Source: Hellea sp. (GTDB taxonomy: Bacteria; Pseudomonadota; Alphaproteobacteria; Caulobacterales; Maricaulaceae). Taken from it: a stretch of DNA of 64,000 nt. A program made the position numbers and the translations under genes. The notes beneath the pieces are model-generated. The model saw only the letters and a list, made by a program, of their open reading frames with translations, was not told the origin of the DNA and searched no databases. This document shows positions 36,506-47,595 of this stretch, piece by piece (within the stretch, counting starts at the first letter, position 1; each line of letters starts with the position of its first letter). Where the stretch lies: positions 116,615-180,614 of the forward strand of contig JAHDEZ010000001.1 in NCBI GenBank assembly GCA_020628425.1, read 5' to 3'.

Positions 36506-36736
36506 AGTGGTTCGCACTATCATGAATTTCGAAAGAGTCAATGGATAAACTTCATATGGCATTTTTCAGACTAAAACCCATTGATTGCTACGAAATAACA
36601 TTAAGTTTACTAGTGCCAGCGGAATCAGGCCTGAATCTGTACAAGTTGTAATTATTCTGACATTTAGTGCTCAGGAGTCGTTCATAATCTGGTAAGTATT
36701 GTGAGCATGACAGAAAGAGACAGAAAGGGCCCCACA

Positions 36737-38887
36737 GTGAAATCACGCCTTCTTAATTCTGCTTTAATAATTAGCGCTTTAGCCATAGGCGCCTGTGCTT
36801 CTTCTGCTAAAGGCAAGAAAACCTCTGCTTTTACAACAAGTAAATCAGCCCCACAGGAACAATTAGAGGTTCAAGCCCCGGAAGGCAGTATTTTAGCGGT
36901 CGTTCGCTACCCGGCTGTAGTTGATAAAGATGCCAAAGATAAGTTTCGCGAAGCCTATCTATCCAGTCCCATTGGCGGGCGCATTAAAAGTGCTACGGAT
37001 GATGAAACCATGGCACAAAACATGGTCGACTCTACCATTGTTAAATCCAATTATTTTGCCCTGTCTCTATACAAGGAACTCGTTGCCCGTTTACCTGAGC
37101 ATTCTGTTTTGCTCTCGCCTCATGAGATTAAGCTGGGCCCGGACGGCGAGCTGACGTCTATACCCGTGACGATGGCCGAAACTCTGCCTAGTGTCGTTAC
37201 CGTGGATTTTGCTACTTATTCTTTCCCGGATCCGGACCGGATGATGAATAAGGAACCCCTGACATTCGGCGATCTCATTACACCTATTGTTTCCGTAAAA
37301 ACAGACCATCGCGCTGCTGTGCCGACCAATGGTGTATTGCTGGCCAGCCAGCCTATTGCGGAAGCGGCCGTTGGGAATGGATACAAAACTGCGCAAGCCG
37401 ATCTGTCGGAATTGCAATCTGGACGGCTCAAGGCGAACATTCCAGAATTGGATTTTATATCATTGATTTCAAACGAGCCTGGAAGACGAACATCGACGCA
37501 GAGTCTGTCCATGCGGGCTGAGGGTAATAGCGTACAAGTTTCGCCACTCGAAAAACTCCAAATGGACGGCGATCTGATTCTGGCTTTGGACAAAGGCAAT
37601 AATCAAGGCGAGATTGACCCTCTTCAACCAATTTTCTCGGATGGGTTTGCCGACCGAATTATCGATATCATTAATGATAACGCCTCTGAAAAGACGGCCA
37701 TGGCCAAACGCGCAGCGGCAATTGCCAATTACGACCCATCTTTAGCCGCTCTAACATATGTCGGCTCTGACAGTCCGGAATATGAAGCACGCTATAATTA
37801 TGTAAACCGTATGCTGGATGCCGAGCGGAAATATTTATCTGTTCAAAGTCTGCGTCTGTTTGATGGTGTTCATAATGGTGAAATGGGCGCTCAGGTTCGC
37901 GACATGCTTAAGGCTGAATACGGGATATTAGAGAAACGTCGTGATCTGGCCAGAAAGCAAAATCAAGCTACAGCCTTGGCAGTCATCGGTGCGGTTGCCA
38001 CAGGTGCCACAATGGGCGGCGGCTCACCTTTGATTATGGGCGGCGGAGCCTCAAGCACACGAAATGACCCTTGCGGTCAACTTCGTCGTCAACCTTATTC
38101 TTCGCCGTCTCAGCAACGGTCGGCTTTGCGTCAATGCTACGCCAATTACGAACGTCAACTTGAAGAACAATGTCGAGGCGCCGTGCAAGATGGACGTTAC
38201 GCGACAATCCGTGAATGTATTGATCGCAACCACTATCGAAACCAGGGTCGGCAGACCCAGGCCGGGGCTAATTTGGGCGGTAATATTTTCATGAGTGGTG
38301 CTATTTACGCCACCACACAGATTTTTGCTTACAAAGAACAATCCAAAGCTGTTGGTGAAAATTATCTTACCTCTATCGTCCCGGCTCTGGAGCAACAGAC
38401 AAATATCCAAATCAGCCTGATAGACTCTAATGAGACCATCACAGCCATTCGTTTCGATGATTTACAGGATCAACTAAAGACTATCTATTTGGAAAAGCAA
38501 CGTTCTCTCGATGAGGTGGCCTCAAACTGTGCTTTCAATAGCGCGGGTTCGGCAACCGGCACCTGGATGGGTGTTTGTGATGGCGGCTTTGCCAACGGAA
38601 CTGGTGTCGGCGTTATTAAGCAAGCCGACGGCAGCTCTGTAGAGTATTATGGTTATGCCACAAACGGTACCCCTAATGGTCCGGGTTATATGATCGTTCA
38701 CGACACAACTGGTTCATATTCCTTGGAAGGCAATTTTATTGCTGGTCATGCTGAAGGCGATATGCGCGTATCCCGCGCCGGAAAGCCGGACGAACTACGC
38801 CGTTATAGTGCCGGTGAAGATGTCGGTCGCGCCTCCAAGAGCGCTGTCATAGTTTCACCCTTTGAAACTCTTAGATCGGGAGCCTGA
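36737..38887 (+). CDS. large hypothetical lipoprotein with MORN-like C-terminus
   Basis: GTG start gives MKSRLLNSALIISALAIGAC lipobox; ORF-track start 36701; C-terminal MORN-like glycine-rich repeats. Confidence 0.65.
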   Translation: MKSRLLNSALIISALAIGACASSAKGKKTSAFTTSKSAPQEQLEVQAPEGSILAVVRYPAVVDKDAKDKFREAYLSSPIGGRIKSATDDETMAQNMVDSTIVKSNYFALSLYKELVARLPEHSVLLSPHEIKLGPDGELTSIPVTMAETLPSVVTVDFATYSFPDPDRMMNKEPLTFGDLITPIVSVKTDHRAAVPTNGVLLASQPIAEAAVGNGYKTAQADLSELQSGRLKANIPELDFISLISNEPGRRTSTQSLSMRAEGNSVQVSPLEKLQMDGDLILALDKGNNQGEIDPLQPIFSDGFADRIIDIINDNASEKTAMAKRAAAIANYDPSLAALTYVGSDSPEYEARYNYVNRMLDAERKYLSVQSLRLFDGVHNGEMGAQVRDMLKAEYGILEKRRDLARKQNQATALAVIGAVATGATMGGGSPLIMGGGASSTRNDPCGQLRRQPYSSPSQQRSALRQCYANYERQLEEQCRGAVQDGRYATIRECIDRNHYRNQGRQTQAGANLGGNIFMSGAIYATTQIFAYKEQSKAVGENYLTSIVPALEQQTNIQISLIDSNETITAIRFDDLQDQLKTIYLEKQRSLDEVASNCAFNSAGSATGTWMGVCDGGFANGTGVGVIKQADGSSVEYYGYATNGTPNGPGYMIVHDTTGSYSLEGNFIAGHAEGDMRVSRAGKPDELRRYSAGEDVGRASKSAVIVSPFETLRSGA

Positions 38888-38889
38888 TC

Positions 38890-39843
38890 ATGTTGAGAAC
38901 CAGTGCACTCGCCCTTATTCTTAGCCTCGGTGGAATATCCGCGCAGGCACAAGATAAGACAGATGTTCAGAATTCGGGCGTTAAAACCGCCACTGAAAAA
39001 GAAATAGACGTCGTTACAAATGTCGCTAATGATGCCGTTCAAAAGGTTGTCCCTGAAATTATTGTGCCGGAAGTACCCGCTTTTACAATGCAGGACGCGC
39101 TGGCCAGTGGTGAACGTGCAATCATTGCCCAACCCATTCAGGAAAAATGTATTACGATCATGAACGGCTTCCCTGATGCCGGTCACGAACCCCGCTATCA
39201 GTTTTTCCGTCTGACTCAGGAACTGGCCAAGGATGTCAATCCAACGATGCGGTCAGCCATAGATTTTTTCGGCGACAGCTCAGTAACCCCTCAGACGCCT
39301 GTCATCGAAGTTATCGAAAATATTGCGAACCCAGTTTACCGACAAGCTGCACCCGAAATTACCGTGGGTAATATGGGCTATCTTATCGATTTTGCTCTGG
39401 ATTGTCAGAGCTATCTTGACGGGCAAATCAAGAGCCTTGAGGCTTTTGATGCTAATTTAACGCAATCAGATTTTGATGTCGTAATCGGCGAGGATGCCTT
39501 GTTTATGCGACAAATCCTGTCCGACTCGCTTTACCGTTTAGGCGGCCAGGAACATGAGATCTTCGGACCGACCGTTCTCGCTTACGCAGACGGGTTGGTT
39601 CGGGCTCGAAACGAGGTCGAGTTCGCCAGTTTTAACAGCCAAATGGATAATATTGAGGCGACCTTTATGGCCGATCTTGATGGACGTTTGGCCCGCTCAA
39701 ATGACGTCATCAATAATGAGATGGACCGGGAAAAGCTAGCCCACGCTCTGGAAGTGACCAAAGACCTGAATGAACATGCCAAGCTGGAAGCCAAGCGCAA
39801 ACAAATCCAGACACTGGCCAAAATTCTGGGCGGCGGATATTAA
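38890..39843 (+). CDS. hypothetical secreted protein
   Basis: Signal peptide MLRTSALALILSLGGISAQAQ; 2 bp after previous stop. Confidence 0.65.
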   Translation: MLRTSALALILSLGGISAQAQDKTDVQNSGVKTATEKEIDVVTNVANDAVQKVVPEIIVPEVPAFTMQDALASGERAIIAQPIQEKCITIMNGFPDAGHEPRYQFFRLTQELAKDVNPTMRSAIDFFGDSSVTPQTPVIEVIENIANPVYRQAAPEITVGNMGYLIDFALDCQSYLDGQIKSLEAFDANLTQSDFDVVIGEDALFMRQILSDSLYRLGGQEHEIFGPTVLAYADGLVRARNEVEFASFNSQMDNIEATFMADLDGRLARSNDVINNEMDREKLAHALEVTKDLNEHAKLEAKRKQIQTLAKILGGGY

Positions 39844-39868: not shown

Positions 39869-40825
39869 ATGAAAGCCAGACGGCGCAATATTTCTGTCTT
39901 TTCCATGTCGGCACTCGACCTGTTCGCGGCGGCACTGGCGGCGTTTCTGCTCATCGTGGTTGTTCTTTTTCCATATTATAACAAAGGCGGAACGGACGAA
40001 GCCACACTGGAAGAACTAGAAGAAGTGGTAAAACAGCGGCGATTTATAGCCGAACAGGAACAATCAGACCAATCCGTTATTAGGGCGTTACAATCTGAAA
40101 TTAATCTTCTCGACAAGGAATACCGGACATCTGCTGAAAACATGTCTGAGATCGAAGAAAAACTACAAGAAGTCCTGAAGCGCACGACGGAAATTGTCAT
40201 TCCGGATCCAGTTCCCGTTAAACCTGTCGAAGAGCCAACCCCTGAACCGGAACCAGAACCTATCCCTGAGCCGCCACGCAGTACAAATACCGGAGTTGAA
40301 TTTTCTATCCTCGGTTTGGGCACCGATAAAAAAGATGTCGTCATGGTTGTTGATATGTCCGGCTCCATGGTTGCTCACCGGGGCAAAGTTGTCGATGCAC
40401 TCAATGAAATTCTCGACCAGATGACACCCGATCACCGCTTTGCTATTATAGGTTATCGAGGTGGACCTAACTATTCCGTTTATCCACCTGGTGGGCGGCA
40501 AACATCTGTCAATGTTCAATCCATCACCCAGGCCCGGGAGTTTGTTCGACGCCTGCCAAATCAGTTTGGAGGCGGGACCCCGACAAAAGCTGCAATGATG
40601 CGGGCACTGACCTTGAAACCCGAAGCCATCATCTTGATGAGTGACGGAGCGCCGGATGACGGTTCCGGGCGGGGAATTGTTTCCACGGTTACCCGGTCCA
40701 ATACAGGCAATGCGGAAATACATACGGTCGCCATTGGTGAATATACCAAAGACCAACAGCTCACACTTTTTTTACAAGAGTTGGCACGAAACAATGACGG
40801 TCAATTTGTAGGACGTGCCCGATGA
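39869..40825 (+). CDS. VWA-domain protein with MotB/ExbD-like N-terminal TM
   Basis: SALDLFAAALAAFLLIVVVLFPYY; VVMVVDMSGSM; GGTPTKAA; LMSDG. Confidence 0.82.
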   Translation: MKARRRNISVFSMSALDLFAAALAAFLLIVVVLFPYYNKGGTDEATLEELEEVVKQRRFIAEQEQSDQSVIRALQSEINLLDKEYRTSAENMSEIEEKLQEVLKRTTEIVIPDPVPVKPVEEPTPEPEPEPIPEPPRSTNTGVEFSILGLGTDKKDVVMVVDMSGSMVAHRGKVVDALNEILDQMTPDHRFAIIGYRGGPNYSVYPPGGRQTSVNVQSITQAREFVRRLPNQFGGGTPTKAAMMRALTLKPEAIILMSDGAPDDGSGRGIVSTVTRSNTGNAEIHTVAIGEYTKDQQLTLFLQELARNNDGQFVGRAR

Positions 40826-41808
40826 AAAGACGTGCGCGAAATATTGAGATATTCTCGCTCTCATCTGTTGATTTGTTTGCCGCAGCCATGGGTGCATTTG
40901 CCCTACTGACTATAGTGCTGTTGCCCTATTATAAAAAGGTATTGGTGGAGAGAACTCCCGAGAACAACATTGCCGACAAAGCTTTCGCTGAAGGCCTGTC
41001 GCTCGTAGAAACACAAGAAAAACGCAAAGCCCTCGAGGTCAAACGCGACGCACAAAAGCGCAATGTGTCGGACATCGAATCCCGCGAGCAAAAACTGCTG
41101 AATGAATTGCGCGCGGCCGAGGCTTCTCTGGAAGAAAAAATGGCCAAAGCCGAAGCCGCACGGGCCATTCCTTTACCTGAGCCACCCGAGCCCATCCCAG
41201 AACCTAAGCCGGCGCCGCAAGAAGCCGAACCCGTTATAACCTTCCGCTTTTTGGGAATGAAAACCAAGAAGGACGATATCGTCGTAGCCATGGACCTCAA
41301 CAAATGTATGGGCGGTCACGAAGACTCGGTCAATCAGTCGGTCAAGCGGATTATTGACAGCCTGCAGGACAACCATGCCGTTCGTGTTGTAGGTTTCCAG
41401 CAGACTGATAACGGCGCCCGGACAACAAGCTGGCCCACTAGCGGTCTAAAACGTATCAACACGTCTAACCGTAGACAGGCTATTTCCTTTGCAGACGGAC
41501 TAACCCGTCAATTTGGTGGCTCCGCATCTATGCTCGATGCTTTTGATGAAATGCTCGATGGCCCTGGTGAAGCCATTTTCTTGGTCAGTGACGGCCTACC
41601 TAACCCGGCGGCTAATAATGGGCTCAGACCTAATGCAGTCATCCGTGAAATTACACGAATGAACCAGGGACGGAAAGAAATTCACACTGTGGTTGTGGGA
41701 AATTATTTTGACTATAAAGGCACAGTGGAATTTATGGAAAAGCTGGCCGAAGATAATAACGGACAATTTATGGCACTGGCCTCCGGGCGAAGCGGTGTTT
41801 GTGACTAA
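40822..41808 (+). CDS. VWA-like paralog with MotB/ExbD-like N-terminal TM and degenerate MIDAS
   Basis: SSVDLFAAAMGAFALLTIVLLPYY; VVAMDLNKCM replaces DxSxS; LVSDG retained. Confidence 0.8.
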   Translation: MKRRARNIEIFSLSSVDLFAAAMGAFALLTIVLLPYYKKVLVERTPENNIADKAFAEGLSLVETQEKRKALEVKRDAQKRNVSDIESREQKLLNELRAAEASLEEKMAKAEAARAIPLPEPPEPIPEPKPAPQEAEPVITFRFLGMKTKKDDIVVAMDLNKCMGGHEDSVNQSVKRIIDSLQDNHAVRVVGFQQTDNGARTTSWPTSGLKRINTSNRRQAISFADGLTRQFGGSASMLDAFDEMLDGPGEAIFLVSDGLPNPAANNGLRPNAVIREITRMNQGRKEIHTVVVGNYFDYKGTVEFMEKLAEDNNGQFMALASGRSGVCD

Positions 41809-41820
41809 AGGACGATAAAC

Positions 41821-42582
41821 ATGAAATATTTCAATACGATGCGCCGAGTGGCCGTTTACGCTATCGCCCTGGTTGCCGCTTTGGTTTTTATCGGGATCAT
41901 GTATTTCACCTTGGGTGACACGCTCCGGGATATATTGTTGGATGCGGATGCCGGTTATTGGCCTTTCACCATCCAAAACATTATGTGGATTGCGCTGTTC
42001 TTTGGCTTTGGCGAATTATTCTTACGATGGAGCGCCGCCACGGATGAAGAAAGTCAGCTGGCGCGCAAATATCTCCCGACAGATGGCCGCAGGCTTGATG
42101 CCGGCACAATCCAAAAAATTCGCGATGGTATTGTGAACCGTAAATACGGGCTCGACGCCTTCTTGCCACGCATGATTCAAAGAACACTAGATCAGTATTC
42201 AGTCTCGCGCAAAACCGATCAGGCCATTTCCGTTTTAAACTCATCTCTTGAGCTTTACATGCACGAAATTGACCTGCGATATTCCACCCTGCGTTATCTC
42301 ACTTGGCTTATCCCGTCTTTGGGATTTATCGGGACGGTTATGGGGATCATGCTAGCCTTGAATTATGCAGGCGTGCCCGGCAATGCAGAGTCTGAAACTT
42401 TCCTATATGAGGTGACCTCCCGTTTGGGGGTAGCCTTTACCACAACCTTGTTGGCTTTGATCATGTCGGCCGTTCTGGTCCTGGTCCAAAGCATCATTCA
42501 ATCGAAGGAAGAACGGGCACTCAATGAGGCCGGTCAATACTGTCTAGATAATCTGATTTTACGTCTCGAAGATGAGGACTAA
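41821..42582 (+). CDS. MotA/TolQ/ExbB-like proton channel family protein
   Basis: LIPSLGFIGTVMGIMLAL...SRLGVAFTTTLLALIMSAVLVLVQSI. Confidence 0.78.
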   Translation: MKYFNTMRRVAVYAIALVAALVFIGIMYFTLGDTLRDILLDADAGYWPFTIQNIMWIALFFGFGELFLRWSAATDEESQLARKYLPTDGRRLDAGTIQKIRDGIVNRKYGLDAFLPRMIQRTLDQYSVSRKTDQAISVLNSSLELYMHEIDLRYSTLRYLTWLIPSLGFIGTVMGIMLALNYAGVPGNAESETFLYEVTSRLGVAFTTTLLALIMSAVLVLVQSIIQSKEERALNEAGQYCLDNLILRLEDED

Positions 42583-42584
42583 TC

Positions 42585-44792
42585 GTGAGCGATAATAACA
42601 CTACAGATTCCGACTGGGCCCCGGTTGGGGAACTACAGAACCGGGTAGAACTAAAGACCAGTTCTAAAGCCATGATCGGACTTATTGCGCTGGCGGCTTT
42701 CATCATTGCGCTTGGAATTTACATTATCATCAATGATGACGGCGGAACGTTTAGGGTTCGCAAGGTTGGCCGCTTTTCTGAATGGTTGGCAGGTCGTCTA
42801 GTTACCGGCGCCGGCATTATCGGCGTTTTGAGCGGACTATTCTTTTTACTAAAACCCAACCGCTTCACTCTAACTCGCGAAGGCTTCGATTATTCTGGAA
42901 TGCGCGGAACGGGTTCGGAAAAATGGACTGAGGTCTCTGAATTTTTGATCAGAGAAATTGCGGTCGACAAGCGCAGCAAAGCCTATACCGTGGTTTATTC
43001 AAGGCTGGACCTTGAAGGCAATCCAACAGAGTTACAAACCATAAAAGAAACATACGGCATGAAACCAGAAGAGTTTCAAACCTTACTCAATGATTTCCGC
43101 ATGCGGGCCATTCAGCATAGCGATAATCCCAATCTAGCGAATTCCGTTTTTAGATCAGATAACGAAAGCTCGAATGATGACTGGACACCTGGTGTGTTGG
43201 ACACAGATGACGATGGCTATAAGGTCGGACAGGAACGGGCGCCCTGGCTCAAATGGGGGCTGGGCGGCTTGTTATTGTCCTTAGTGGCAGCCGGTGCAAT
43301 ATATCTGGGCTCTATTTGGTTTTTCGACAATGCACCCGAGAAGAAGATTGAATTCCCAAGCGGTAATGCTTCTGTGGCCAATGGCGGCCCTGATTCAAAC
43401 GAGGCCCCACCAAAATCCGCCGACGATTTAGCCTGGGTTGAAGCCCTCGAAAAGGATACCCTGCAGGGCTACAAGGACTACATAGAAGCTTTCCCAGAGG
43501 GTCGGTATGTGGACAAGGCGCAAGCCGAAATCGATGTTTATGACGACGAAGCCTGGGCCATTGCCGAAGAGCGCAACACCATCGCTGGCTATGAAGACTA
43601 TCTGACAGAATGGCCTGAGGGCAAGCATGCCCCAAAAGCGCAAGAGCTTATAGACCAGATGAAGAAGGCTATTGAGGCCGCAGAAAAAGACGCCGCAGAA
43701 AAGGCCGAACAGGCTCGGCGCGAAGCCGCTGCTCGAGCCGCAAGAGACCGTCAGGCTTGGTCTACGGCCGAGACTGCTAATACGGTTCAGAGCTATCAGC
43801 GATATCTGGGTGAATTCCCATCCGGTCAAAACGCAGCTGAAGCGCAATCTCGGATCGATCGCTTCATGGCTGACGCCGCAACTGCTGAGGCAAATGCCAT
43901 TGAACAGTCTGCGTGGAATACGGCGAAAACCAGCAATACGGCGGAAAGCTATCAAACTTACCTGTCCAGCTATCCCAATGGTGCCTATGCGCCTCTGGCC
44001 AAGGCAGCCCTCGAAGAACTCCGCCCATCACCGGGCCGAACTTTTCAGGATTGCAATGTCTGCCCCATGATGAAGACTTTAGATAGCGGCACTGCGCAAT
44101 TAGGCGCTTCAGGTTCAGAACCGGGCGTGAAACCCAATGAACAGCCTAAACGGCCTGTTATTTTCAGTACGCCTTTTTCCATCAGCTTGACCGAAGTGAC
44201 TTTCGCGCAATGGGGCGCTTGCGTCTCTGACGGTGGCTGCTCAGGTCAGCCCAATGACAATGGCTGGGGCAGAGGAAATCGACCGGTTATCAATGTCTCT
44301 TGGGACGATGCCCAAAAATATGCCCAGTGGTTGTCCAACAAGACTGGGCACAAATACAGCCTTCCGTCGGAAGCCCAATGGGAATATGCGGCCCGCGGCG
44401 GCGAAACAGGACATTATATGGGCGGATCGCAGGCTGCACTCTGTGCGTTCGCCAATGGTGCCGGCAATGAATCTGGCCTGACCTGGGCCAATATAACCTG
44501 TTCTGACTTATCTTCTGATAGAACCCTGCCGGTCGGTAGTCTGTCCGCCAATAAGTTCGGCATCAAAGATATGTTGGGTAATGTGCAAGAGTGGGTGCTA
44601 GACTGCAATACACTTAACCTGAAAGACGCACCGACCAATGGCGAACCGGACCTGCGTGGCTCTTGCAATCAGCGCATTGTTCGAGGCGGGTCGTGGTTCT
44701 CACCACCAGCGGGTCTGCGTTTTACAGCGCGTGAAAATCAGCGCCGCGGTGACAGCAATGACTTCACAGGCTTTAGAGTGGTCCGGAACTGA
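42585..44792 (+). CDS. multi-TM protein with four repeats and C-terminal SUMF1/FGE-like domain
   Basis: Three TM segments; four copies of AWxxAxxxNTxxxYxxYLxxxPxGxxAxxAxxxI; INVSWDDAQKYAQWLSNKTGHKYSLPSEAQWEYAARGG. Confidence 0.85.
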   Translation: MSDNNTTDSDWAPVGELQNRVELKTSSKAMIGLIALAAFIIALGIYIIINDDGGTFRVRKVGRFSEWLAGRLVTGAGIIGVLSGLFFLLKPNRFTLTREGFDYSGMRGTGSEKWTEVSEFLIREIAVDKRSKAYTVVYSRLDLEGNPTELQTIKETYGMKPEEFQTLLNDFRMRAIQHSDNPNLANSVFRSDNESSNDDWTPGVLDTDDDGYKVGQERAPWLKWGLGGLLLSLVAAGAIYLGSIWFFDNAPEKKIEFPSGNASVANGGPDSNEAPPKSADDLAWVEALEKDTLQGYKDYIEAFPEGRYVDKAQAEIDVYDDEAWAIAEERNTIAGYEDYLTEWPEGKHAPKAQELIDQMKKAIEAAEKDAAEKAEQARREAAARAARDRQAWSTAETANTVQSYQRYLGEFPSGQNAAEAQSRIDRFMADAATAEANAIEQSAWNTAKTSNTAESYQTYLSSYPNGAYAPLAKAALEELRPSPGRTFQDCNVCPMMKTLDSGTAQLGASGSEPGVKPNEQPKRPVIFSTPFSISLTEVTFAQWGACVSDGGCSGQPNDNGWGRGNRPVINVSWDDAQKYAQWLSNKTGHKYSLPSEAQWEYAARGGETGHYMGGSQAALCAFANGAGNESGLTWANITCSDLSSDRTLPVGSLSANKFGIKDMLGNVQEWVLDCNTLNLKDAPTNGEPDLRGSCNQRIVRGGSWFSPPAGLRFTARENQRRGDSNDFTGFRVVRN

Positions 44793-44818: not shown

Positions 44819-45238
44819 TTGATTGCATTTCTCTCAGCATGCCAACCTATGCCTGCTGATCCGGTTGAAACTGATGGGCTATTGACATGGGAAAACTTTG
44901 GCGAACCTCACCCCAAAATTATTGAAGGCGGTTTTCCAAGCCAACTCAATATTGATCAATTAATGAAGAATGATGAATGTCATGTAGTCATCGAATTCGG
45001 GAGCTATGCGACTGGCATCTCCCTACCTCATGCAGCAAACGTGAAAACCTGGCTTTTAAACTCGCCTGATGTCGAAAGCATATACCGGATATATTGGGGT
45101 AAAGAAGGCGAAGTCAGTTTTTGCGCAAAAGTTTCAGATATTTCACGACGTCAAAAAGTCATCCATGGACTCAACTTGATGGTCTTGAATACTGGTCCGG
45201 TTTTGAACGGCTCGGTAAGCAAGGCACGCGCTAATTAA
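44819..45238 (+). CDS. small hypothetical lipoprotein
   Basis: LSAC lipobox; only non-ATG starts available (TTG 44819 or CTG 44789). Confidence 0.5.
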   Translation: MIAFLSACQPMPADPVETDGLLTWENFGEPHPKIIEGGFPSQLNIDQLMKNDECHVVIEFGSYATGISLPHAANVKTWLLNSPDVESIYRIYWGKEGEVSFCAKVSDISRRQKVIHGLNLMVLNTGPVLNGSVSKARAN

Positions 45239-45408: not shown

Positions 45409-47595
45409 ATGATCATTATGAAGAAACTTGCTCTTATCCTTGCTTTTTCCGTATCCACTTCAGCGTTGATGGCCCCACAGGCTTTAGCGCAGGATAATAC
45501 AACTAATCCCGATACACGTCAGACAGATCAATCCGAAGATGATTGGCGGAAATCCCGCAAAGTCAAAGACGAAAAAGAAGTCTTTGAGGACATTCTCGAT
45601 ACGATAACAAATGGCGGATATAATATAGACAAGCCACAACCTAGCGAAGTCGAGACCTTACCGGAAGAGAGCTACCGCCATGTCATGAAAGAGCGGGCTC
45701 GTGTCATGGCCGAGACCGATCCCGGTCAGCCTATCGATGATAGCTATAACCCATCCGAAGCCGCTAAGGCTGATCCTGAACTCAAGAAACAGGAAGAAGA
45801 AGCATGGGAGATCATTATGACTGATCTCAAGAGCGCTAATGGGCAGCAACCCGGCCAACAACAGGGTGGACAAGGCGGCGAGCATAAGGTTGCCGTTGCT
45901 GGACAGAATACAGGTGGCAGCGCCCGCGATACCAGTATTCGTGGCGGCTCGTCAGCCTCTGCTTCCGATATCATGAATGCCATTAAGAATGGCGGAATGG
46001 GTCAGGGCGGTCAGCCCGGACAATCAGGTCAGAGCGGTCAAAGTCAGCAACAGGCCAGCAATGGACAATCCGGTCAACAAGGTCAAAGTCAGCAACAAGC
46101 CAGCAATCAAGGCCCGCGAGGTGGGTCTGCGCAATCCATCATGGAGATTATGAGCGGTATTCGAGGCAGTAGCCCGTCAGGGACACCATCAGGTCAACCG
46201 GGTGGTCAAGGTACAAGTCAGCAAAGCGCACAACGCGGAGGCGCATCGACATCCGCATCTTCCATCTTAAATGGTTTGGGGCAAAGCCCAACCGGTTCTC
46301 CGAACGGATCTCCCCTCGGAACGTCGCCTTCCGGTTCACCAACAGGTCAACCTGGTGGCCAAGCTAGCAACCAGCAAAGCGGGCCACGTGGCGGTTCCTC
46401 GGCCTCGGCAGCTTCAATTCTTAACGGAATTCGGGGTGGCCAAGGTCAAAGCCCAACCGGCTCTCCATTTGGGACGTCGCCAACCGGGGCTCCCACGGGT
46501 TCGCCAAGCGGACAATCCGGTGGCGCATCTTCATCGGCCTCGTCCGTTCTTAACGGACTCAGTCAAGGTCAGGGTCAAACCCCGACCGGATCCCAAAATG
46601 GATCACCTACAGGTACGTCGCCAACAGGCAGCTCAACGGGGTCACAAAGCGGATCTCAAAATGGACAACCAAGCGGTCAAAGCGGTGGGTCATCGTCATC
46701 TGCATCTTCCCTCTTAAATGGGATGAGCGGTCAAGGGCAATCCGGTCAGTCCGCAGGACAAAGCGCTCAGTCAGCACAATCGGCCGCCCAAGCCGCAGGA
46801 CAGGCGGCGGCGCAGGCCGCTCAGTCTGCAAGTGCGGCAGCCGCCCGAGCAGCACAATCCGGAAGCTCACAAAGCGCGTCCGACTCGGCACGGGCTCAAG
46901 CCGCGGCTCAATCTGCCCAGGCCGCCGCTAATCAGGCGAGCGCCGCCGCTGCACAAGCGGCAAATGCGACGAGTGCCGGAGAAGCTCAAGCCGCCGCACA
47001 AACTGCGCAAAACGCAGCTGCTCAGGCCCAACAAGCTGCCAACCAGGCTGCCGCCGCTGCTTCCGGTCAGCAGCCCGCTGAATACATGCGGGGATCGCAA
47101 GCGACAGCTCAGGCTGCTGCTCAGGCTGCTCAGCAAGCCGCATCCCGTGCCGCACAATCAGCCAATAGCGCCGCCGATAATGCCATGGCGAGCCGTAGCT
47201 CTGAGAGCTTTGCGCAATCCGCTGCGGCTACGGCCGCTGCACAAGCCGCGCAACAAGCCAATTTAGAGGCTCGTGAGGCTGCAGAGCGAGCACAAAATGC
47301 CACAAGTGCCAGCGAAGCCGAAACAGCAGCGGGGCAGGCTCAAGCAGCCGCGCAAGCTGCGCAAGAGGCTGCCGCCCAAGCCGCTCAAGCCGCAGGACAT
47401 TCAGACGGGCAGGTTTGTGAAAATCCGGAAAACTGCCCTCATGAGCATGACGAAACGGGCAATCATACTGATGGATCACCGAACGGTACGGAAAACGGAA
47501 CCGGTTATACGCCAATTGACAGTTCCAGCTCTCAAGGCGGCACAACCAGTGCTTATGAATATATCCGTCGTCAGCAAGAACAAGGCGGAAACTAA
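45409..47595 (+). CDS. secreted Gly/Ser/Gln/Ala-rich modular repeat protein
   Basis: Signal peptide LALILAFSVSTSALMAPQALAQ; six GGSSxSASxxLNGxxxG modules, then A/Q-rich region and Cys/His-rich tail. Confidence 0.75.
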   Translation: MIIMKKLALILAFSVSTSALMAPQALAQDNTTNPDTRQTDQSEDDWRKSRKVKDEKEVFEDILDTITNGGYNIDKPQPSEVETLPEESYRHVMKERARVMAETDPGQPIDDSYNPSEAAKADPELKKQEEEAWEIIMTDLKSANGQQPGQQQGGQGGEHKVAVAGQNTGGSARDTSIRGGSSASASDIMNAIKNGGMGQGGQPGQSGQSGQSQQQASNGQSGQQGQSQQQASNQGPRGGSAQSIMEIMSGIRGSSPSGTPSGQPGGQGTSQQSAQRGGASTSASSILNGLGQSPTGSPNGSPLGTSPSGSPTGQPGGQASNQQSGPRGGSSASAASILNGIRGGQGQSPTGSPFGTSPTGAPTGSPSGQSGGASSSASSVLNGLSQGQGQTPTGSQNGSPTGTSPTGSSTGSQSGSQNGQPSGQSGGSSSSASSLLNGMSGQGQSGQSAGQSAQSAQSAAQAAGQAAAQAAQSASAAAARAAQSGSSQSASDSARAQAAAQSAQAAANQASAAAAQAANATSAGEAQAAAQTAQNAAAQAQQAANQAAAAASGQQPAEYMRGSQATAQAAAQAAQQAASRAAQSANSAADNAMASRSSESFAQSAAATAAAQAAQQANLEAREAAERAQNATSASEAETAAGQAQAAAQAAQEAAAQAAQAAGHSDGQVCENPENCPHEHDETGNHTDGSPNGTENGTGYTPIDSSSSQGGTTSAYEYIRRQQEQGGN
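45940..46745 (+). repeat. degenerate coding tandem repeats in the 728-aa protein
   Basis: Six module copies; includes 27/28 identical units at 46036 and 46081 (45-bp period). Confidence 0.8.

Follow-up and report, generated by a model that had tools for sequence, protein, structure and literature searches.

What do two tandem VWA proteins, each anchored by a helix that carries an aspartate, do beside a gene for a TolQ/ExbB-like protein? They lie on the plus strand of the window, by which we mean the whole 64,000-nucleotide stretch of Hellea sp. DNA that was analyzed. The first-pass annotation had proposed that they are B-type stator subunits with VWA heads, and we consider this likely. VWA1 (39869..40825, 318 aa) and VWA2 (40822..41808, 328 aa) are encoded by tandem open reading frames that share an ATGA overlap. 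Both N-termini are Arg-rich and continue as x-x-F-S-x-S-x-x-D-L-F-A-A-A, in which Asp is residue 17. Each protein has one hydrophobic stretch starting from residue 16, with Kyte-Doolittle means of 2.83 and 2.31, respectively; a coiled coil comes next, and a Pro/Glu linker connects it to the VWA domain. In the AF2 model of VWA1, built on an 11-row alignment (A2), residues 15-38 are helical and residues 48-106 form a second, coiled-coil-like helix; a disordered linker of low confidence then leads to a VWA fold (156-316) whose pLDDT is mostly near 90. Foldseek matched this head to VWA domains with prob 1.00. Pfam detected VWA_3 in VWA1 (7.7e-15) and in VWA2 (6.8e-4), the latter at 20.2 bits, under the 27-bit cut-off. 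The open reading frames, Pfam, and the AF2 model of VWA1 thus bear out the common architecture that had been read from the sequence. The longer N-terminal consensus given for both proteins holds for the shared start and is one letter off in VWA1, which reads AFLLIVV, not AFxLLxx.

The gene that begins 12 bases 3' of VWA2 (41821..42582, +) had been called MotA/TolQ/ExbB-like, and this assignment was confirmed. Its product matched MotA_ExbB (PF01618) in Pfam at 4.2e-12 and 46.4 bits against a cut-off of 22.9, and its AF2 model (pLDDT 86.5) had TolQ/ExbB proteins as the top Foldseek matches (prob 1.00, best E 9.7e-4, TM 0.60). A profile of this putative pentamer-forming A subunit found only MotA, PomA, TolQ, and ZorA among PDB sequences, all weakly (E 0.07-0.74). 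The pore residues Thr172 and Thr209 align with threonines that we take to be functionally essential in TolQ/ExbB. Thr172 (GFIGTV) was invariant in the window-type, VWA-pair, and TolQ/ExbB groups, and Thr209 was present wherever a row has a residue at that position, in each of the four groups including MotA. An A-subunit tree of 57 rows contained 21 rows of the window type and 8 rows of the VWA-pair type, from loci that combine a TolQ-like gene with two unlike VWA proteins (L143, L219-L226), besides TolQ/ExbB and MotA. In this tree, for which the program warned of long branches, a 98/98 branch placed the window-type and VWA-pair A subunits on one side, apart from TolQ/ExbB and MotA; support was 90/83 for TolQ/ExbB, 100/99 for MotA, and weaker, 67/84, for the window type alone.

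The three genes belong to an operon of six. Upstream lie genes for a predicted lipoprotein of 728 aa (36701..38887, +; lipobox IGAC by eye) and a predicted periplasmic protein of 317 aa (38890..39843, +; signal peptide by eye), both of which gave no Pfam match. The sixth gene (42585..44792, +) begins 2 bases past the end of the A gene and encodes a membrane protein with three hydrophobic stretches and an FGE-sulfatase domain (496-734), which the GldK model matched at 7.4e-21, far under that model's cut-off. Pfam, NCBIfam, and PADLOC found no ExbD, MotB_plug, or defence system over the operon, the A subunit giving no more than weak ZorA-like scores. VWA1, VWA2, the TolQ-like gene, and the FGE-domain gene were on one strand in all 35 Caulobacterales-type loci (L031-L065), the periplasmic gene was present in 34/35, and the lipoprotein gene in 33/35. 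The full six-gene operon was found in 33 loci, the remaining two being short (5.8-6.3 kb). Because the pair and the A subunit recur in 35/35 loci, the architecture of VWA1 and VWA2 is not a matter of chance. The VWA proteins were present in 27 of the 149 nearest genomes. A search of 399 Pseudomonadota at E 1e-30 with the A-subunit profile recovered just two genomes, that of the window and one with the VWA-pair locus L143, so the window type is seldom seen beyond its own family. That locus (L143:5979-10197) contains a TolQ-like gene, a gene for a 434-aa protein, and genes for two differing VWA proteins (FSLSFLDIMSCGFGA, FSISFLDVICCGFGA). Downstream of the window operon, a small predicted lipoprotein (44819..45238, +; lipobox LSAC by eye) was not detected as a conserved partner in the 35 loci. 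It is followed at 45409-47595 by a gene for a 728-aa secreted protein, rich in Gln, Ser, Gly, and Ala with repeats GGxSxSASSILNGL, for which Pfam gave no match at E up to 1.

More distant A subunits, with 31-50% identity to that of the window (alignment A1), were found in Kiloniellales, Gammaproteobacteria including Parabeggiatoa, Gemmatimonadota, Latescibacterota, Binatota, Myxococcota, Verrucomicrobiota, and Rhizobiales; searches of Myxococcota and Verrucomicrobiota gave no further members. Their B proteins have the same helix with varying heads, mostly VWA. Pfam found no VWA match in the tested Rhizobiales B protein or in the C-terminal head of the Parabeggiatoa B protein (L066:9526-10386; L112:12125-12988), which has the same helix. 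Tandem B pairs with near-identical helices occur in two genomes (L116:9482-11413, Latescibacterota, and L121:10350-12281), apparently by independent duplication. A few genes from a Gammaproteobacterium A subunit, L126:3820-7242 encodes a protein of 1141 aa whose start, VLFVVDTSGSM, is VWA-like and which by eye resembles a pilus-tip PilY1-like protein.

Near the distant A/B genes, Pfam analysis (on L069) identified genes for a small FHA protein, a second FHA protein, PP2C, a Ser/Thr kinase, and a trypsin-FHA protein, and such genes cluster with A/B genes across several phyla. Many of these kinase-type relatives carry a single B gene, and thus a heterodimer is not general. The linkage to kinases and phosphatases suggests that some 5:2 motors are under Ser/Thr phosphorylation control. 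It also lends weight to a different reading, that the A/B pore is an ion channel or sensor of membrane potential or envelope state and not a force generator, the VWA heads reporting what is sensed, in those clusters to a kinase or phosphatase. The window operon, however, has no FHA, PP2C, kinase, or trypsin-FHA domains and encodes envelope proteins, and a coiled coil with a linker suits mechanical coupling; we regard a sensor as unlikely here. In one relative (L071:10706-12769), a Pkinase-PEGA-FGE-sulfatase fusion, a Ser/Thr kinase, adjoins the B gene. We speculate that a fusion of this type may explain why the window operon, which has no kinase, retains a membrane protein with an FGE domain.

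The motor reading gives a central role to Asp17, which had been expected to be conserved in homologues. When an HMM with the Asp column masked was applied to the fetched loci, Asp was kept at the masked column in 115 of the 119 distinct proteins, as expected. One of the four exceptions (L035:2789) is an apparent chance match, and the three true ones are all from Rhizobiales, namely Hyphomicrobium, Rhodoblastus, and Xanthobacter (L073, L076, L077). Their helix reads ...GxEVAMMAVITKAMGAF...: Ala replaces the Asp, a Glu precedes it by about one turn, and a Lys follows one turn after it. Asp is retained in G1455, a genome of the same order as the Xanthobacter locus, so the loss is a narrow one. 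The Rhizobiales B proteins with Ala for Asp (also in L133, L135, and L136) have coiled coils and no VWA match, and the A subunit beside them is still present and retains the pore Thr. Possibly these systems are motors with a relocated acidic residue, or inactive ones.

Could the Asp instead be a helix N-cap, the capping-box residue (SxxD) of a signal anchor, with the VWA proteins as passive anchored binders and the A subunit as a scaffold? Such a role would fit the Asp, which falls within the opening turn of predicted helix 15-38, and the Ser that is frequent three residues before it. However, one paralogue in the VWA-pair loci reads AFLD, having lost this Ser while retaining Asp, which argues that Asp is more than a cap, and the constant A gene with its intact pore Thr would be left unexplained. 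We consider passive binders quite unlikely.

The helix had also been likened to those of MotB, ExbD, and TolR, and this relation was not recovered by profiles. Pfam gave no ExbD (PF02472) or MotB_plug (PF13677) match in VWA1 or VWA2 at E up to 1, and no peptidoglycan-binding (OmpA-like) domain. In hhalign, the 39-column helix scored 12.3 against ExbD and 14.2 against MotB, whereas column shuffles reached 19.5 and 18.6, respectively; at 16.2, ExbD compared with MotB as the positive control was itself inside the shuffle range. Since the helix scores were not above the shuffles, no profile relation was found, an outcome that the first-pass annotation had itself listed against its proposal; since the control likewise failed to exceed them, the comparison is non-decisive. 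The sequence of the helix being non-decisive, the case for putative B subunits comes from the partner protein, the Asp, the surrounding genes, and the published model of the complex discussed below. In the window's genome, ExbD matches are on contigs C94 and C48 and the MotB_plug match is on C8, and the window's own contig (C36) has no ExbD or MotB_plug gene. It is therefore very unlikely that the VWA proteins are TolA/TonB-like transducers outside the A pentamer, with another ExbD/TolR-type protein filling the pore: a vWA family of this kind beside tolQ plus a tolR pair is described in the main-text section of Williams-Jones et al. 2025 (PMC12204202), but that family is marked by an SHLS motif and by a TM-helix His that binds the motor, whereas the helices of VWA1 and VWA2 have no His and a near-invariant Asp instead.

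The same section describes other vWA proteins, termed TPH-vWA, that tightly co-occur with tolQ homologues without tolR/exbD neighbours. They are mostly heterologous pairs with a conserved proton-binding Asp in the trans-pore helix, AF3 predicts these helices inside a Thr-ringed pentamer, and the type example is Idiomarina loihiensis. The idea of a B-type VWA motor has thus already been published for a related group, and the B-subunit proposal for the window matches that prediction because the architecture described is the same. On the whole, the proposal that VWA1 and VWA2 are B-type stator subunits is favoured by the Asp, the pore Thr and fold of the A subunit, its pairing with the VWA genes, the absence of ExbD and MotB_plug from the contig, and the AF3 model; the lack of a significant profile link and the loss of Asp in three Rhizobiales loci speak against it.

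The two VWA proteins differ from each other in a constant manner. The MIDAS of VWA1 was intact (DMSGS and GGGTPT) in 35/35 loci, and VWA1 was Cys-free across them. The MIDAS of VWA2 is degenerate: it reads DLNKC in the window and D-[ML]-[NS]-[KR]-C wherever the pattern matched (31/35 loci). The C-terminus of VWA2 is GVCD in the window and G[VI]C[DA] across loci, and its Cys count was exactly two in 34/35 loci. Because VWA2 has exactly two Cys, one of them at the lost MIDAS, the simplest reading of these residues suggests a disulfide in the periplasm that links the Cys at the MIDAS position to the C-terminal one.

If VWA1 and VWA2 are B subunits, they would, probably one each as a heterodimer, form a 5:2 ion-driven motor with a pentamer of the 41821 product. 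A proton or other ion would pass Asp17 of both trans-pore helices and the Thr ring of the A subunit, making the two helices turn against the pentamer. Through the coiled coils and Pro/Glu linkers this motion would reach the VWA heads on the far side of the periplasm, and the heads may pull on a partner in the envelope or remodel it. The partner is most likely encoded in the operon itself, as the lipoprotein, the periplasmic protein, or the FGE-domain protein. The VWA1 head would bind a ligand via its intact metal site, and in VWA2 the putative disulfide would tie the C-terminal tail over the lost site. We tentatively extend this to an obligate heterodimeric, asymmetric B pair, in which VWA1 may grip by its metal site, a disulfide-tied tail may replace that of VWA2, and the heads may alternate with every half-turn, the motor of distant relatives being under FHA/PP2C/Ser-Thr-kinase control. 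If so, each half-turn would show the envelope partner a different head.

What is new here is the inbuilt asymmetry of the pair, the fixed six-gene operon in Caulobacterales, and the signalling-linked relatives; they provide a second, independent body of evidence for a motor type until now backed by prediction alone. The main-text section of PMC12204202 contains no kinase/phosphatase linkage, operon partners of the window type, or MIDAS asymmetry. vWA is absent from a 2026 review of Ton and Tol motors, and in the literature searched we found no relevant paper joining ExbB or a proton channel with VWA and FHA/PP2C and no description of 5:2 motors controlled by Ser/Thr phosphorylation. The operon is conserved in Caulobacterales, among them the described species Algimonas arctica and Litorimonas cladophorae, and puts names to candidate partners; the invariant MIDAS/Cys asymmetry and the Asp allow single-residue tests.

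Among known systems, the TPH-vWA proteins, as described in the main-text section of PMC12204202, share with the window a heterologous vWA pair, the Asp helix, a tolQ-like neighbour without tolR/exbD, and the Thr ring of the A subunit, whereas the window type has lipoprotein, periplasmic, and FGE-domain partners and the MIDAS/Cys asymmetry. Idiomarina was compared by description; VWA-pair loci of the TPH-vWA layout, such as L143, share the 98/98 branch with the window's A subunit, which is on a separate branch within it. TolQR and ExbBD resemble the window system in the A fold, both pore threonines, and a B subunit with one TM helix and an Asp close to where that helix begins, whereas the window's B head is a VWA domain and not the ExbD/TolR periplasmic domain. 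GldLM, of gliding and type 9 secretion, is a 5:2 motor that works with the FGE-sulfatase-like protein GldK, and the FGE-domain resemblance of the 42585 product was the sole likeness seen. With MotAB and ZorAB the window would share the logic of a 5:2 ion motor, and its A profile weakly finds MotA, PomA, and ZorA in the PDB; there was no match to ZorB, however, no Zorya partner genes were seen, and the window has no MotB_plug or OmpA-like peptidoglycan-binding domain. Instead, the proposed B subunits of the window carry a VWA domain in place of the usual cell-wall-binding domain of such motors.
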